DNA of 13,329 nucleotides from the NCBI GenBank assembly GCA_017997855.1, contig JAGOEF010000024.1, positions 1 to 13,329 on the forward strand. The letters run 5' to 3'. Position numbers and translations under genes: made by a program. Positions 1,332 through 13,329 of the stretch are shown one piece after another. The notes below the pieces were generated by a model. That model ran no database searches, was not told the origin of the DNA, and saw only the letters and a list, made by a program, of their open reading frames with translations. Positions within the stretch are counted from its first letter, which is position 1, and each line of letters starts with the position of its first letter. This stretch comes from Bacteroidales bacterium (lineage in GTDB: Bacteria > Bacteroidota > Bacteroidia > Bacteroidales > ML635J-15).

Positions 1332-1341
1332 CCTGAGTTTG

Positions 1342-1737
1342 TGGAGCTGGCGGGGATCGAACCCGCGTCCAAACAGGAGACAAAAGGGCTTTCTACATGC
1401 TTATCCTGTTATTGATTGTCGGGAATTGTCGCGAAAACAGGCATCCAAAACAACTCCGTATCTTCTGTTTCTCGCTGTGGTAACGAAGCTTACCACAACC
1501 ACCCCGGAATTGCTGCCACCTCCTGATCGGACCGGAACCGGGTCTGTCCATCCGGGAGATGTCCCGCTCCAACACCTTGTGTCGGAATTAGGCTCATTTT
1601 ACTGTCGTAAAATTAAGCTGCAAGAGCAAAGTTATCTGCGCCAGTTGTTTGGTCGCGGATCAGTTTTACGGGTTAATCCACCTAGCCCGGCATGCTTACA
1701 CAATCACCTCATCTGCTGTCAATACCATGTCAGCCCC
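1342..1737 (-). ncRNA. ssrA: tmRNA (transfer-messenger RNA)
   Basis: On the - strand the RNA begins GGGGCTGACATGG and ends CCAGCTCCA. These ends form the tRNA-like acceptor stem, with a G-U wobble at the third pair, the identity element read by alanyl-tRNA synthetase. The T arm is GCGGG-TTCGATC-CCCGC just before the 3' end. The three bases after the discriminator A are CAA rather than CCA, so CCA must be added after transcription. An internal tag frame ending in ALAA-stop lies at 1613-1642. The length (396 nt) is normal for a one-piece bacterial tmRNA. With SmpB it rescues stalled ribosomes and tags the unfinished peptide for proteolysis. Open frames drawn across this interval on either strand are not genes. 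Confidence 0.97.
1613..1642 (-). other. tmRNA proteolysis-tag reading frame
   Basis: Reading the - strand from 1642 gives GGC GCA GAT AAC TTT GCT CTT GCA GCT TAA, that is GADNFALAA followed by a stop. The ending -ALAA is the hallmark of an ssrA degradation tag recognised by ClpXP-type proteases, and Bacteroidota tags commonly have the pattern G-x-x-N/S-Y/F-A-L-A-A. The exact resume codon (the GGC at 1642) is inferred from that family pattern. Confidence 0.88.
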
Positions 1738-7146: not shown

Positions 7147-9171
7147 ATGAGCGATAAAGAAAAGCAATTCAGTTTCGATACGGACAATCTTTTCAGGTTT
7201 ATTGTTAAAAAACAATTGCCTTTGCTGTATGTTTCGCTGGCTGCTTTAGTGGTTTCACTTATAATCAGTTATTTAATCCCTGTTGAGTATAAATCGACAG
7301 TTATTCTTTATCCGGCCTCACCGGGTTCGATTTCTCAGAGCCTGTTGTCGGAAAGCTTTGCCGAAAAAGAGTTATTAAAATTTGGGGAGCAGGAGCAAGT
7401 GGAGCAAATGATGCAGATTCTGCAATCGTCGGCCATTCGCGATAGAATAATCGAGAAATACGATTTATTCAAGCATTACGACATTGACAAAACCGGAGAT
7501 TATCCCATTACATCGCTACACCGGCATTATCAGAAAAATGTAAAAGTTACGCGAACCGAATACATGTCGGTAAAGATTGATGTTTACGACCGTAATCCGG
7601 TAATTGCTGCATCAATTGCCAACGATATAGCCGCATTATACGACAGCACGGTAAACAACATGCAGCGGGAACGAGCATTGAAAGCATTTCTGCTCGTTGA
7701 AAACGAATACAATAATCTGAAAAATAGAATTCAGGGGATACAGGACACGCTGCAAAAAATTCATAAACTGGGAATTTTTGAATTTGAATCGCAGAGTGAA
7801 GTGTATAATGATCAGCTTGCGGTTGCCCTTGCACAAGGCAACATGCGTGGGGTAGCCGAAATCGAGAAGCGCCTTGAAGTTCTTGCGACCTATGGTAGTC
7901 AATACACCAAACTTCGTGACCAGTTACAGGAAGAAGTAAAGAAACTTTCCAAAATAGAAGCCAAATATGCCGAAGCCAAAATAGACCTTGAGCAGGATCT
8001 GCCACATAAATATGTTGTCAGTAAAGGCGAAATTCCCGAAAAGAAAGCCTATCCGATACGATGGCTTATTGTTTTGGTTAGTACTCTGTCAGCATTCCTT
8101 TTTGGGTTAATTGTCTTGCTGCTGACTGATGGTGAAAGTAAAAAAAAAAGCCAAGCCCGGAGCATCCGGGAACTGGCTTTGAAAGTGTTGTCTAAAACAG
8201 GAAACTACGAAATAAACTATAATGTTATGGAACAGTATTTCAGAACTCAAAAACTTTTCGAACTGTCGCTTAAATGGAAATGGCATCTGCTAATAGTTGC
8301 CATTGCTGCGGCTGCCATCGGCACGTTTATTTCATCGCCGCTTATCATTAAACCAAAGTACAAATCAGTGGCCGTTGTATACCCAGCCAATATTTCAACT
8401 TTTTCGGAAGAATCAGAGACCGAACAGATGCTCGAAATTATACAGTCAAGAGATATCCGTTTCAGACTTTTTGATGCTTTCAACCTGGCAGAGCACTATG
8501 GTATCGACCCAAAACATCCACACTTTAAGACATTGATGAACAATGAGTTTGAGAGCAATGTAACATTTCAGAAAACCCCAAATGAAGCCATCGAAATTAC
8601 GGTGACCGACATCGATCCTCAGATGGCCTCCGACATGGTTGATTCGATTCTTTCTTTTTATACGCAAAAAATGCTCGTGCTCTTACGTGGAAAAGCCGCT
8701 GAAATATTACAGCTAAAACAGCTCAGCATGAACCGCAAGCAGCATGAAATCGACAGCCTCACCAGTACAATCAACGAATACCGGCAAAAAAACAACCTGT
8801 TGGATTACAAAACACAGGTAAAAGTCTACTCTGAAGCGGTAAGCGAAGGTCGCAGCCTTGATGAAGCCAGAAAAGTGCTGGATAACTGGAAGCAACTTGG
8901 GGCTGAATATCAAAAAACCGACTCGACTTTATGGTATGCTATCAACGATTTACATCGTTTTAAAAAGGAATATGATGAAGCTTATATGCATGCTACAAAA
9001 GAAGTAACATTCGCCCATGTAATTACCCATCCCTATCCAGCCGATAAAAAGTCGTATCCCGTGAGGTGGCTCATCGTATTGTTTTCGGTTTTAGGTGCAT
9101 TGTTTGCATCGGTGCTGACCATTTCAATCATCGAAAGCCGCAGGGAAAAAAGCCGGAAGAGTGCTGTCTAA
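7147..9171 (+). CDS. Tandem double Wzz/PCP polysaccharide chain-length determinant
   Basis: This 674-residue inner-membrane protein consists of two complete Wzz-type polysaccharide co-polymerase units in one frame. Unit 1 (about 15-331) has TM1 at about 24-43, the post-TM motif EYKSTVILYPAS, a periplasmic coiled-coil-rich part, the pre-TM motif KKAYPIRWLIVL and TM2 at about 305-327. Unit 2 (about 361-674) repeats this: TM3 at 380-397, KYKSVAVVYPA, coiled coil, KKSYPVRWLIVL and TM4 at about 640-662. A single Wzz is usually 300-380 residues, so the length is doubled. No tyrosine-kinase domain is attached. The role is to set the chain length of O-antigen or exopolysaccharide made by a Wzy polymerase. 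The linker (332-360) is encoded by ten As and a hairpin, so a frameshift would separate the units; unit 2 has its own possible ATG at 8227. It overlaps the downstream ligase/polymerase gene by 11 bases. Confidence 0.85.
   Translation: MSDKEKQFSFDTDNLFRFIVKKQLPLLYVSLAALVVSLIISYLIPVEYKSTVILYPASPGSISQSLLSESFAEKELLKFGEQEQVEQMMQILQSSAIRDRIIEKYDLFKHYDIDKTGDYPITSLHRHYQKNVKVTRTEYMSVKIDVYDRNPVIAASIANDIAALYDSTVNNMQRERALKAFLLVENEYNNLKNRIQGIQDTLQKIHKLGIFEFESQSEVYNDQLAVALAQGNMRGVAEIEKRLEVLATYGSQYTKLRDQLQEEVKKLSKIEAKYAEAKIDLEQDLPHKYVVSKGEIPEKKAYPIRWLIVLVSTLSAFLFGLIVLLLTDGESKKKSQARSIRELALKVLSKTGNYEINYNVMEQYFRTQKLFELSLKWKWHLLIVAIAAAAIGTFISSPLIIKPKYKSVAVVYPANISTFSEESETEQMLEIIQSRDIRFRLFDAFNLAEHYGIDPKHPHFKTLMNNEFESNVTFQKTPNEAIEITVTDIDPQMASDMVDSILSFYTQKMLVLLRGKAAEILQLKQLSMNRKQHEIDSLTSTINEYRQKNNLLDYKTQVKVYSEAVSEGRSLDEARKVLDNWKQLGAEYQKTDSTLWYAINDLHRFKKEYDEAYMHATKEVTFAHVITHPYPADKKSYPVRWLIVLFSVLGALFASVLTISIIESRREKSRKSAV
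8140..8182. other. A10 tract plus GC-rich hairpin at the Wzz unit junction
   Basis: Ten As (8140-8149, codons 332-334 plus one base) abut a hairpin with an outer stem AAAGCCA (8147-8153)/TGGCTTT (8174-8180), an inner stem CCCGGA (8156-8161)/TCCGGG (8165-8170) and loop GCA. If one A were lost the frame would end at TGA 8180-8182; if one were gained, at TAA 8193-8195. Read on the - strand the hairpin is followed by ten Ts, the form of a strong intrinsic terminator. The sequence is directly visible; its function is not. Confidence 0.8.
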
Positions 9172-10612
9172 AAAGAAGATAACGGCATTTTATATTTTAT
9201 CGTTGCTGTTTGTTGCAGCAAACGGGCTCATAGTATATTTAACAGAATCTTACCTTTTTAGCGCTATTCCCCTTGTTTTTCTGTTTTTACTATTTTCGCT
9301 CTTTGCGCTCGATAAAATGTTAATTCTATCGTTTGCGTTGGTACCTCTCTCCGTCCCGTTAAAAGAGTTTCTTCCCGGCCTTGATTTCGACATGGCACTT
9401 CCCACAGAGCCATTGCTTTTTCTGATATTACTGATTTTTATTCTGAAACAAATCCGTGACCGTGATTTCGATAAAAACATACTGAAACATCCTGTAAGCA
9501 AGGTATTGTATTTTTATCTGGGATGGATTGCCATTACTACTATTACAAGTAGTATGCCACTGGTGTCGCTAAAATATTTAATGGTAAAACTCTGGTTCAT
9601 TATTCCGTTTTACTTTTTACTCACACAGGTTTTTAAAAATAAACCCAATATTTACAAATCGTTTTGGTTTTATATTGTTCCATTTATTATTGTAATCATT
9701 TACACATTAGTCAGGCACGCTCCCCACTATTTCGACCAAAAATCTTCGAATTTTGTAATGACACCCTTTTTTAATGACCACACATCCTACGGTGCATTGC
9801 TGGCCATGTATATACCGATAATTGCCGGAATGGTTCTCGACAAAACGGGTCGAAAAATAACCAGAATAATCAGTCTTGGCGTTTTGGGTCTTTTTGTAGT
9901 TGCGATTGTTTTCAGTTATACTCGAGCTTCCTGGGTTGGACTTATTGCTGCGATGGGTTTGTTTGTTTTATTGAAATTAAAAGTAAAAATCCGCACACTG
10001 TTTATTGGTGCAGGTATAGTTGGAACACTTTTTATACTGTATCAGGGTCAGATTATGATGAATCTGGAACAGAACAAACAAGATTCATCAACAAATTTAC
10101 AGGAACACGTAAAATCAATTTCAAATGTTGCCACCGATGCCAGTAACCTGGAACGTATCAATCGCTGGAACTGTGCTATCCGCATGTTTCAGGAAAAACC
10201 ACTGTTTGGCTTCGGGCCCGGAACCTATCAGTTTAAATATGCACCCTATCAGTTCTCCTACGAAAAAACCATAATCAGTACCAATGCCGGGGACATGGGA
10301 AATGCGCATAGTGAGTATTTGGGGCCTCTATCGGAATCGGGCATTTTCGGAATGCTTTCGATGCTGGCGATTGTGATTGTTTTCTACCTCACTTCGATAC
10401 GACTTTATTACAAGCTCAAAGACCCAAAAACCAAAACGCTCATTGTCAGCATTATATGCGGCATGACAACCTACTTTATTCATGGTTTGATGAATAATTT
10501 TCTGGATACAGATAAGGCTTCGGCTCCATTTTGGGCATTCTTTGCCATTGTAGTCGCAATTGATGTTTACCATCAGGAAAAATCACCTGAAAAAGCCGGC
10601 GAATTGCTTTAA
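9161..10612 (+). CDS. O-antigen ligase / polymerase-like membrane protein (Wzy_C family)
   Basis: This 483-residue polytopic protein has roughly eleven to twelve hydrophobic segments and the features of the O-antigen ligase (WaaL)/polymerase (Wzy) superfamily: NDHTSYGALLAMY (205-217), SYTRASWVGL (252-261) with the conserved arginine R255, a large periplasmic loop (about 295-395) containing RINRWNCAIRMF, a GFGPGTYQF turn and NAHSEYLGPLSESG with H383, and a late membrane part with HGLMNNFLDT. It would polymerise glycan repeats or attach them to an acceptor such as lipid A core, on the periplasmic side. Ligase and polymerase cannot be told apart here. The start is GTG at 9161, inside the last 11 bases of the Wzz gene, so translation is probably coupled. 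Adjacency to Wzz supports a shared polysaccharide role, although no glycosyltransferase or flippase lies in the window. Confidence 0.87.
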   Translation: MLSKKKITAFYILSLLFVAANGLIVYLTESYLFSAIPLVFLFLLFSLFALDKMLILSFALVPLSVPLKEFLPGLDFDMALPTEPLLFLILLIFILKQIRDRDFDKNILKHPVSKVLYFYLGWIAITTITSSMPLVSLKYLMVKLWFIIPFYFLLTQVFKNKPNIYKSFWFYIVPFIIVIIYTLVRHAPHYFDQKSSNFVMTPFFNDHTSYGALLAMYIPIIAGMVLDKTGRKITRIISLGVLGLFVVAIVFSYTRASWVGLIAAMGLFVLLKLKVKIRTLFIGAGIVGTLFILYQGQIMMNLEQNKQDSSTNLQEHVKSISNVATDASNLERINRWNCAIRMFQEKPLFGFGPGTYQFKYAPYQFSYEKTIISTNAGDMGNAHSEYLGPLSESGIFGMLSMLAIVIVFYLTSIRLYYKLKDPKTKTLIVSIICGMTTYFIHGLMNNFLDTDKASAPFWAFFAIVVAIDVYHQEKSPEKAGELL

Positions 10613-10689: not shown

Positions 10690-13329
10690 ATGAAAAAAAT
10701 CGTATTTCTCATACTGTCGGGCATCTGCCTTTCGACGCTATCACAAGCACAAATTTCCACTTTTCCTTATACCGAATCGTTCGACTCGGGTAGCTTTCCA
10801 ACAGCCTGGTCTCAGGAATATATTTCGGGATCTGCAAATTGGGTTGTATCTTACGGGGGCTTTTCGGGCAGCCCATCGGCACCCTATTCGGGAAGTGGGA
10901 ATGCCCTTTTTTCGAGTCCCAATTACGACGGAAACGAAACTTTTATGGTAAGTCCGGCGTTTGATTTTTCGGCAGTTTCGAATCCCCGCCTCAAGTTTTG
11001 GCATGCTCAGTACAACTGGGATACCGATCAGGACAAACTATGGGTTTATTACAAGACCAGCGCAAGCGGCGAATGGATTCTACTCGCTTCGTACACTACC
11101 GCGGTAACTGCTTGGACACAGCGAACCATTGAATTGCCCAATACAGGGTCGGAATACTATATCGGGTTCAAAGCCCAATCAGGCTATGGCTTTGGTGTGG
11201 TAATCGACCAGATTGTGGTTGACAACGCACCTACCTGTAATACTCCTACAGGATTTCAGGTACTCAGTACCTCAACCGAGTCGGTTAACCTGGGCTGGAC
11301 ATCCAATGGCAACCTGTGGCAGATTGAGTATGGACTGAGTGGGTTTACTCAGGGTAGCGGTACTCTTATCGACAACATTACAACAAACCCATATACCATA
11401 TTCGGGCTGAGCGAAGGCACCAGCTATCAGGCTTATGTGAAAACCGTCTGCTCCGGGGCTTCGAGTGGCTGGGCAGGACCTGTTAACTTTACAGCCGACT
11501 GCAACCCAATCAGCAGCAATAATTTTATCGAAAGTTTTGAAAGCACCACGGCCCCGCCTGCTTGCTGGTCTGTAGTATATCAAAACGCCAGTCCGCCTGC
11601 CGGAAATTTGGTTACCCACTCATCGAGTTTTGCCTTCTCGGGAAATAAATCGTTCCGGTTCAGCTCCTATTCTCCAGGTCCACCCTACGGACAATACCTT
11701 GTTTCACCCCAAATTGCGGCATACACCGGGACGCGTGAATTCCGCTTTTGGTACCGTCGTTACAACTCAGGCAGCGAAATATTCAGGGTTGGATACAGCA
11801 CTTCGGGAAACAACCTGACAACTGACTTCAACTGGTCTTCCGAAATTTCGAATGCCAGCGCTGAGTGGAAACTGTATACGCAAACCCTGCCTGCCAATGT
11901 GAAGTATGTTGCTATCAATTACCGAACTGTTTTTCAGTACTATCTGTACGTTGATCAATTGCAGATAAGGATACCTCCCACATGCCCCCAGCCCGAAAAT
12001 CTCTATGTAAGTAACATTACAGCCGTATCTGCCCACCTGAACTGGATTGCCGGTGGAACAGAATCCTCATGGCAAATCGAATATGGACCGGCCGGTTTTC
12101 AGCATGGGGAAGGCACACTGATTACCTCGTCGTTCGCTGTAAATATCCTCAACAACCTAACGCCCAACACGCAATACGATGTTTACGTCAGGGCTGTTTG
12201 CGGTGCCGAAAACAGTGTGTGGACAGGACCTGTTACATTTTCTACTCCATACGGGTGCAGTCCCATAACCGGCATGACGGTTGAAAGTGTTTCATCGGGT
12301 ACCGCATTTATCAATTGGAATCCATCGGGTTCCGAAACATCATGGAATCTTGAGTATGGTCAACAAGGCTTCATTCCCGGTACCGGGACCCTGGTGCAAA
12401 ATATCACGACCAGCGAATACGAAATTTCAGGGCTTATTGCAAATACTTCGTATGAATTCCGCATTCAGGCAGATTGCGGGAGTCCTTTTGGTCTGGCGCC
12501 ATGGTCAATATTGAAGTCATTTGTTACTTTACCATGCGACAACGGATGCGACTATCAGGTTACGCTCGAAGATGCCTGGGGTGATGGTAGGGGCGACAGC
12601 TATATCAGTGTATTGCAGAACGGCTCTGAGACAGGTCAACTGAAACTCAATAATGGTCAGACATTGACACAGGCCTTATATCTGTGCGACGGCGAATCGA
12701 TTTCGCTGGTTCTTCATCCTTCGGCATTTGTGAGTGAGATTGGCTTAACCCTCGACGATCCTTTCGGGAATGAAGTGTACCAACTGGAACCTTATTCACT
12801 GGAAGAAGGAACCGGGATTACCCAATTGTTGAGTTTCACAGCAACCTGCACAGAACCGGAGTGTTTGCCCCCGTTCAACATGAATTTATCAGGCTTAAGT
12901 TCTCAATCGGTTGATTTAAGCTGGAATCATAGTGTTCCGGGAAGTATTTTTCAGATTAGCTATGGTCTTGCAGGTATCACCCCCGAGACCGGCACATTTA
13001 TCGATGCTATAAGCGCTGAAAATTATTCACTGGGAGGTCTGGCATCGCAACAGACCTACGAGGTATACCTGCGGACCGATTGCGGTAGTCAGTTCAGTGT
13101 TTGGACAGGGCCTTACAGCTTTACCACCACTGCCATGGACCTCAGCAATCCTGTTTCATGTAATGCTGCGATTAATATTCCCGACAATCATTGCATAAAC
13201 TTAAGCATCAATATTAATGAAAGTGACAATACGGTACTGGGTATGGACGTACTACTGGAAGAAATCCGTTTCATTATTGAACATCCCTTCGATGGAGATA
13301 TCGACATGAGCCTGACATCACCCGATGGC
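10690..13329 (+). CDS. Secreted multidomain FN3 / choice-of-anchor J surface protein (3' partial)
   Basis: The frame is open from the ATG at 10690 to the window end (880 codons, no stop), so the C-terminus is missing. Residues 1-20 form a signal peptide (KK, hydrophobic core, SQA cleavage). Then come a jelly-roll domain of cleaved-adhesin/choice-of-anchor J type (about 22-182; ESFDSGSFPTAW), FN3-1 (183-271), a second such domain (272-433; ESFESTTAPPACW), FN3-2 (434-520), FN3-3 (522-613), a Cys-flanked beta domain with EDAWGDGRGD (616-720), FN3-4 (723-814), and the beginning of a proprotein-convertase P-like domain (FIIEHPFDGDIDMSLTSPDG at the edge). The FN3 units share YG-x2-GF/I, GTL/F-I and W-x-GP-x2-F, and have paired Cys residues. 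This architecture is typical of type IX secretion cargo, so a C-terminal sorting domain is expected outside the window. Function may be adhesin or protease; no catalytic domain is visible. It follows the ligase gene by 77 bases. Confidence 0.9.
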   Translation, partial: MKKIVFLILSGICLSTLSQAQISTFPYTESFDSGSFPTAWSQEYISGSANWVVSYGGFSGSPSAPYSGSGNALFSSPNYDGNETFMVSPAFDFSAVSNPRLKFWHAQYNWDTDQDKLWVYYKTSASGEWILLASYTTAVTAWTQRTIELPNTGSEYYIGFKAQSGYGFGVVIDQIVVDNAPTCNTPTGFQVLSTSTESVNLGWTSNGNLWQIEYGLSGFTQGSGTLIDNITTNPYTIFGLSEGTSYQAYVKTVCSGASSGWAGPVNFTADCNPISSNNFIESFESTTAPPACWSVVYQNASPPAGNLVTHSSSFAFSGNKSFRFSSYSPGPPYGQYLVSPQIAAYTGTREFRFWYRRYNSGSEIFRVGYSTSGNNLTTDFNWSSEISNASAEWKLYTQTLPANVKYVAINYRTVFQYYLYVDQLQIRIPPTCPQPENLYVSNITAVSAHLNWIAGGTESSWQIEYGPAGFQHGEGTLITSSFAVNILNNLTPNTQYDVYVRAVCGAENSVWTGPVTFSTPYGCSPITGMTVESVSSGTAFINWNPSGSETSWNLEYGQQGFIPGTGTLVQNITTSEYEISGLIANTSYEFRIQADCGSPFGLAPWSILKSFVTLPCDNGCDYQVTLEDAWGDGRGDSYISVLQNGSETGQLKLNNGQTLTQALYLCDGESISLVLHPSAFVSEIGLTLDDPFGNEVYQLEPYSLEEGTGITQLLSFTATCTEPECLPPFNMNLSGLSSQSVDLSWNHSVPGSIFQISYGLAGITPETGTFIDAISAENYSLGGLASQQTYEVYLRTDCGSQFSVWTGPYSFTTTAMDLSNPVSCNAAINIPDNHCINLSININESDNTVLGMDVLLEEIRFIIEHPFDGDIDMSLTSPDG

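Follow-up and report, generated by a model that had tools for sequence, protein, structure and literature searches.

PCP proteins form rings of several subunits beside the polymerase, and phase variation through homopolymers is known to occur in genes for surface sugars. Escherichia coli dnaX has a 3' stem-loop, and a hairpin that stimulates ribosomal frameshifting needs a spacer that separates it from the slip site. Accounts of programmed slippage exist for dnaX, for transposases, and for certain secretion genes (PMC1088944, PMC3711429, PMC5009743). In dnaX of Thermus thermophilus, according to the account of that system, transcriptional slippage at A9 within the gene produces a short and a long product that share their N-terminal part (PMC1088944), and for the two-ORF dnaX genes of Chlorobi and others, slippage at A9 to A10 has been proposed from templates in which the two parts are out of frame (PMC3711429). 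For a large share of bacterial genomes, selection on A/T runs is reported to be evident at a length of nine (PMC1088944). On chain length determinants in combination with frameshifting and slippage, our search of the open-access literature returned one paper, which describes DNA-level G-tract variation in Akkermansia (PMC13055324); it returned no report joining Wzz with slippage or frameshifting, although such a report could exist under other terms or in subscription journals.

Here, we describe a two-unit wzz gene of Bacteroidales in which a run of adenines at the junction between the units is, on the evidence of comparative sequence analysis, probably a programmed slippage site operated mainly by RNA polymerase. 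The window, i.e., the whole 13,329-nucleotide stretch that we analyzed (contig JAGOEF010000024.1 of a Bacteroidales bacterium), contains a single frame of 674 amino acids (ORF 7147–9171) in which two Wzz-type units are fused via an A10 run (Table 1). The Pfam Wzz profile (PF02706) matches this protein in two stretches with a score of 38.1 bits; on its own, unit 1 scores 27.9 bits, which is above the cut-off of 25.5, and unit 2 scores 23.9 bits, just under it. The two units are 26% identical to one another (E value of 7e-35), and Pfam detects no kinase domain in the two-unit protein. AlphaFold predicts two PCP-type units (mean pLDDT of 78.5), each consisting of an alpha/beta base and long helices flanked by two membrane helices, with a low-confidence stretch at residues 330 to 366; the pTM is 0.39, so that the placement of the units relative to each other is not readable from the model. 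The top Foldseek matches are Wzc, KpsE, and WzzE, with E values down to 5e-10. Judging from PCP topology, the linker would lie on the cytoplasmic side of the membrane.

Among the best 120 of 126 matches in a protein search, many are two-unit proteins of about 580 to 770 amino acids with lower identity to the window protein, and one (P0002) is likewise fused, at 673 amino acids and 76% identity. The 90% cluster of the window protein comprises six member sequences from four contigs. Linkers are hypervariable apart from a KKK that 33 of 38 aligned proteins have after unit 1, and the single-unit proteins P0099 to P0102 terminate directly after it. Elsewhere in the window are a tmRNA gene (1341–1737, minus strand; tag peptide GADNFALAA), crossed by a plus-strand ORF (1273–1791) that has no Pfam match and is probably spurious, and a long repeat protein (MAM and fibronectin type III; 10690–13329) that is cut by the window end.

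Table 1. Features of the two-unit wzz locus and its surroundings, in window coordinates
Feature	Position	Strand	Occurrence in relatives
Unit 1: Wzz/PCP-like domain ending at the A-run, two membrane helices predicted	7147..8139	+	Kept in relatives
A10 run, proposed slippage site, KKK in frame	8140..8149	+	A9 to A12 at the same place in 103/145 distinct loci
Stem-loop abutting the run, far stronger than those of relatives	8147..8180	+	Most relatives without it
Linker: predicted cytoplasmic, hypervariable, low confidence in the model	8150..8226	+	
TGA closing the frame reached by loss of one A (or gain of two); 344-aa single unit	8180..8182	+	
TAA closing the frame entered when one A is added or the ribosome makes a -1 step; 349-aa single unit	8193..8195	+	
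Unit 2: second Wzz/PCP-like domain, conserved ATG at its start, possible independent start	8227..9171	+	
Wzy_C ligase/polymerase-like gene whose GTG start falls before unit 2 ends; conserved partner	9161..10612	+	

The junction reads AAA AAA AAA A and encodes KKK in frame. At ten, its length in the assembled sequence, the run is the longest homopolymer in the window, with A8 and T8 as runners-up. The preliminary description of this DNA had claimed that exactly ten As fuse the units and that nine or eleven would end translation early, and the sequence bears this out: a run of nine leads to a product ending in GNWL and a run of eleven to one ending in ESVV. What it said of the A10 tract, the position of the junction, the two units, and the abutting hairpin is also right for the window.

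Relatives of the locus were collected in two sets from genome collections holding one genome per species. A scan of a species-level collection confirmed 325 stretches, the best of which provided a first set of 79 loci; 75 of these contain both units, or 76 with the window added. For the second set, 393 genomes of the same order were searched, with matches in at least 232; the matches listed, which extend to an E value of about 5e-129, yielded 128 places (30 given as loci and 98 fetched), being all of the full-length or unit-1 places listed minus two present in the first set. Profile searches conducted for each unit recovered both in 181 of 218 sources, and the removal of copies at 95% identity or above left 145 distinct loci: the first set contributes 74, counting the window, and the second set adds 71. 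Frame classes were assigned without regard to the A-run, and because the loci share ancestry, the counts that follow do not represent independent events.

A run of nine to twelve As is present at the junction in 103 of these 145 loci, the window among them. The preliminary description had proposed comparing homologous loci for one long gene versus two short ones, and this comparison separates four classes. (i) In 71 loci, unit 2 is out of frame, and joining it to unit 1 would take the gain of one A or a ribosomal -1 step; every one of them has a run of A9 to A12 (36/36 in the first set and 35/35 in the later sample). (ii) In-frame fusions number 35 (window included), with the run in 28 and absent from 7. 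(iii) Ten loci are displaced in the opposite direction, three of them with the run. (iv) The remaining 29 have separate genes, and only one of these (L122) has a run. By frame, the run loci thus consist of 71 of the -1 type, 28 in frame 0, and 3 of the +1 type, plus the broken L122. A fusion lacking the A-run in relatives was offered beforehand as an observation that would speak against slippage; it occurs in 7 of the 35 fused loci and not in the other 28, which keep the run although it is not needed to make the fusion.

The reading frames on either side of the run follow the same division. In all 74 out-of-frame run loci, the frame of unit 2 is open from the run to unit 2, and in the same loci that of unit 1 is open in none and the third frame in four. 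Unit 1's frame closes 0 to 59 nucleotides past the run in all 71 loci requiring one extra A, and within the first set, both alternative frames close within 1 to 84 nucleotides in all 20 in-frame run loci. The first set by itself has unit 2 out of frame in 39 of 76 loci (38 requiring one more A or a ribosomal -1 step and one the opposite), all 39 with a run of nine to twelve and with unit 2's frame open from the run onward. Overlapping open frames also occur without a run, in 7 of the 11 out-of-frame runless loci, all seven displaced in the opposite direction, so that frame overlap alone is weak evidence and the proper control is the count for the third frame. In these seven (L150, L157, L166, L177, L180, L184, and L185), unit 2 lies in the +1 frame and unit 1 stops 13 to 58 nucleotides before the unit-2 ATG; they are probably separate genes with chance overlap. 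One locus with the arrangement (L145) is situated on a 3.1-Mb contig, and the arrangement is therefore not confined to fragmentary assemblies. A search of PLSDB for carriage on plasmids gave no match at an E value of 1e-5.

The presence of the A-run at the junction is not due to chance: in the first set, nine or more As occur at 59 of 76 junctions (window included) versus once in the remaining 136 kb of gene-pair sequence, and in 746 kb of flanking sequence, A/T runs that reach nine or ten number 31. The comparison lends strong support to the central proposal of the preliminary description, that a slippery run would let the cell make single and fused regulators side by side, with the run present in 71 of 71 loci in which an additional A would restore the joined frame.

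The process that we envisage would operate as follows. RNA polymerase would slip on the run and produce transcripts with nine, ten, eleven, or more As; transcripts in frame would specify a covalent fusion of unit 1 to unit 2, and those off frame would reach a stop soon past the run and specify a free unit 1, which is a normal PCP with two helices. In loci of the window's type, the template encodes the fusion and slippage would yield the single unit, and in those of the type represented by the 71 relatives, it is the single unit that the template encodes, and slippage (by one added A) would yield the fusion. Unit 2 might, in addition, be translated separately from its own start, a possibility raised by the ATG that 138 of 145 loci, fusions included, keep there. 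Upstream of this ATG, out-of-frame loci are enriched in A at -12 (0.81) and -3 (0.73), positions that are described as initiation determinants in Flavobacterium (PMC6847099), and separate-gene loci are without the same peaks (0.64 and 0.39, respectively); coding constraint confounds the enrichment, and with the separate-gene class differing, unit 2 may or may not have an independent start. The mixture of products would then enter the polymerization complex of the neighboring Wzy_C-type enzyme and set chain length. From these comparisons, we infer that slippage takes place in the cell, mainly during transcription, and that it would govern the ratio of products and affect polysaccharide length.

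Transcription is favored as the level of slippage by three features: no locus requiring one more A has a run below A9, the run is found in all three codon phases, and strong hairpins are mostly lacking. Run lengths in these 71 loci are 9 (15 loci), 10 (46 loci), 11 (8 loci), and 12 (2 loci), with none at 7 or 8, and the three phases are represented by 49, 19, and 3 loci. Nine is also the length reported for selection on A/T runs and for slippage in T. thermophilus dnaX (PMC1088944). The locus also has what is expected of programmed transcriptional slippage, namely, a run of at least nine at the junction, a conserved open downstream frame, and multiple template frames. Against transcription, the direction is nearly uniform, with 71 loci requiring the addition of an A versus 3 requiring its removal, and the GeneTack paper treats uniform direction as a sign of ribosomal frameshifting (PMC3711429). 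This argument is blurred by the 28 frame-0 loci that carry the run, and an RNA polymerase biased toward insertion would generate the same direction.

The alternative is that the mRNA is faithful and that ribosomes undergo a dnaX-like programmed -1 frameshift on the A-rich codons, leading to the same two products. A step of exactly -1 is what 71 of the 74 out-of-frame run loci need, and a correctly phased A AAA AAA is contained in every run of nine or more As, whatever its phase. However, seven nucleotides suffice for such a site, yet no locus of the +1 A class has a run under nine.

The window additionally offers a strong 3' hairpin. The fold of 8140–8195 has a free energy of -18.8 kcal/mol (z score of -3.0), matched by 4 of 200 shuffled sequences, and the 45 nucleotides past the run fold at -15.5 kcal/mol (z score of -1.7), which makes this the most stable hairpin among the 59 run loci examined, the next being -11.3 kcal/mol. 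Most of the 59 have no strong hairpin after the run, and that of the closest relative (L004) amounts to -3.3 kcal/mol. z scores below -2 were obtained for 7 of 59 loci at an offset of 0 versus 11 of 236 control stretches (P = 0.06), and for 10 of 59 at an offset of 6 and again 10 of 59 at 12 (Fisher's P = 0.003 against the same controls), so a minority of loci may have a downstream stimulatory structure. Overall, downstream structure is barely above that of the controls (mean z scores of -0.52, -0.41, and -0.55 at offsets of 0, 6, and 12, respectively, versus -0.09), most of the 59 loci have no 3' stimulator of the kind that would be conserved under ribosomal frameshifting, and the window's own hairpin begins within the run, which leaves little or no spacer.

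As a conserved stimulator, the hairpin was rejected for most loci, the excess being limited to a minority, and the one in the window may be a local feature that modulates the event. The earlier suggestion of a dnaX-type site with a stimulatory hairpin is correspondingly left with weak support, drawing on the minority excess and weakened by the lack of the hairpin in most relatives, L004 included. A codon-position signature in the linker, considered as a proof of translation, was dropped, given that the bias between close relatives is not significant (43/43/57 over 17 pairs, some of which include duplicates of the same genomes). Read on the minus strand, 8140–8178 has the shape of an intrinsic terminator, a hairpin followed by T10; the minus-strand ORFs of at least 80 amino acids nearby (7547–8005 and 7636–7902) lie inside unit 1 and look spurious. 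Taken together, we regard ribosomal frameshifting as the sole explanation to be unlikely, albeit a serious contender; slippage by RNA polymerase is more likely than slippage by the ribosome, and both may act.

If, instead, the length of the run were altered during DNA replication, cells would switch heritably between fused and single forms. Phase variation of this type has a precedent in the G9 tract of an Akkermansia Wzz-domain gene, which shows its features as described (PMC13055324), and one pair of loci at 93.8% identity, L054 (A10) and L063 (A11), differs by one A and hence in frame, a difference that may be either a real polymorphism or an assembly error. Run length is nevertheless steady, being equal in 24 of 26 comparisons of distinct loci at 78 to 97% nucleotide identity (the exceptions are L054/L063 and L070/L071), and the frames are spread unevenly (71, 28, and 3, plus the broken L122), such that phase variation seems improbable.

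On the tree of the 145 loci, fused and out-of-frame run loci interleave, with minimum numbers of label changes on well-supported branches of 14 for in-frame loci with the run and 19 for out-of-frame loci, as estimated by a quick method that flags long branches. L004, which has A11 and is out of frame, is the sister of the window, which has A10 and is in frame. The template frame thus appears, from the sequences, to have flipped repeatedly while the run persisted. L003 and L071 both have A10 and differ in frame, indicating that the frame also shifts through indels elsewhere. In another sister pair, L042 has A8 and a broken joined frame and L139 has A9 and an open one, which fits a threshold of nine; L042, together with L122 (A9, with the frame of unit 2 broken), could possibly represent decaying slippage sites.

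A run of lysines might also be kept merely as a positive anchor that follows the second membrane helix of unit 1, as could be read from the KKK found after the helix in 33 of the 38 aligned proteins. This reading is contradicted by single-unit relatives and by codon choice. Among 32 distinct unit-1 loci with more than 1 kb of downstream sequence and no unit 2, none has nine or more As (one has A8), which indicates that the run tracks the second unit and not the membrane end of unit 1. Of the 37 sources without the pair of units, 5 are cut at or soon after unit 1 by a contig end, and 3 of those 5 have A9 to A11, with a single contig accounting for two of the three. Separate-gene loci have varied tails, mostly without KKK, and of 74 KKK tripeptides elsewhere in 809 kb of ORFs, just 4 are written with nine As. 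We therefore consider an anchor alone very improbable. Finally, that a sequencing miscount in the window has joined two ordinary neighboring genes, which the preliminary description ranked as an equally serious alternative, can be dismissed almost completely, for although single-base errors in runs are common in principle and the nearest relative, L004, has an out-of-frame unit 2, a miscount does not explain 35 distinct in-frame fusions (28 with the run), a fused P0002, a 90% cluster spanning four contigs, or a joined frame held open in out-of-frame loci as well, unexpected for two ordinary genes, and slippage is indicated instead by the retention of the run in 103 of 145 loci, the interleaving of frames, the open joined frame, and the absence of the run where there is no unit 2.

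The genomic context suggests what RNA polymerase slippage at this site could serve. A Wzy_C match is located by tblastn within 400 nucleotides past unit 2 in 68 of 75 loci, and this context, together with the likeness to PCP proteins, makes chain-length control a candidate role for the window protein. By analogy with PCP rings, mixed rings could form from the fusion together with free unit 1. We tentatively suggest that slips by RNA polymerase set the ratio of free unit 1 to tied unit 1-unit 2 within such a ring, that separate unit 2 may be made as a third product from its own ATG, and that the length of Bacteroidales surface polysaccharide might in this way be tuned by slippage and not by promoters or ribosome binding sites. 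Slippage would here be an old and widespread trait of a surface-polysaccharide gene in Bacteroidales, and mixed rings of tied and free PCP subunits that set chain length are now directly testable. Ordinary gene calling would close unit 1 within 59 nucleotides of the run in 71 of the 145 loci and would, in doing so, hide the fusion.

Each unit shares the PCP layout of WzzE, Wzc, and KpsE, but unlike these proteins, the window protein is a tandem of two units, without a kinase domain according to Pfam. WzzP of Porphyromonas gingivalis is also an overly long chain-length regulator from Bacteroidales (560 amino acids), which its description sets apart as a protein with a pair of membrane helices plus an extended C-terminal region and not two Wzz units (PMC3684754). 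In Akkermansia Amuc_1413, as in the gene studied here, a homopolymer within a Wzz-domain gene (G9) alters the product; there, the change is reported to occur in the DNA and to cause early truncation, whereas the run described here is stable in length and stands between two complete units (PMC13055324). IS630-type transposases and Shigella mxiE and spa13 likewise require homopolymer slippage for a longer, fused product, according to the reports on them (PMC3711429, PMC1088944, PMC5009743), but the Wzz locus is chromosomal, lies beside a Wzy_C gene, and has a template frame that flips between relatives. With E. coli dnaX (A AAA AAG), it shares an A-rich slip site and the -1 direction and, in the window, a 3' hairpin; it differs in that the +1 A class never has fewer than nine As and in that most loci have no strong hairpin. 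The mechanism proposed here is of a known kind; what looks new, within the open-access literature that we searched, is the gene family and how widely it is spread. The nearest likeness in mechanism is to the slippage described for dnaX, which is the same process at A9 within the gene in T. thermophilus, and in which, going by the published accounts, versions with the template in frame and out of frame both exist, as they do among the Wzz loci (PMC1088944, PMC3711429). Unlike in dnaX, what slippage would add or remove here is an entire second copy of the same domain, in a gene for surface polysaccharide.
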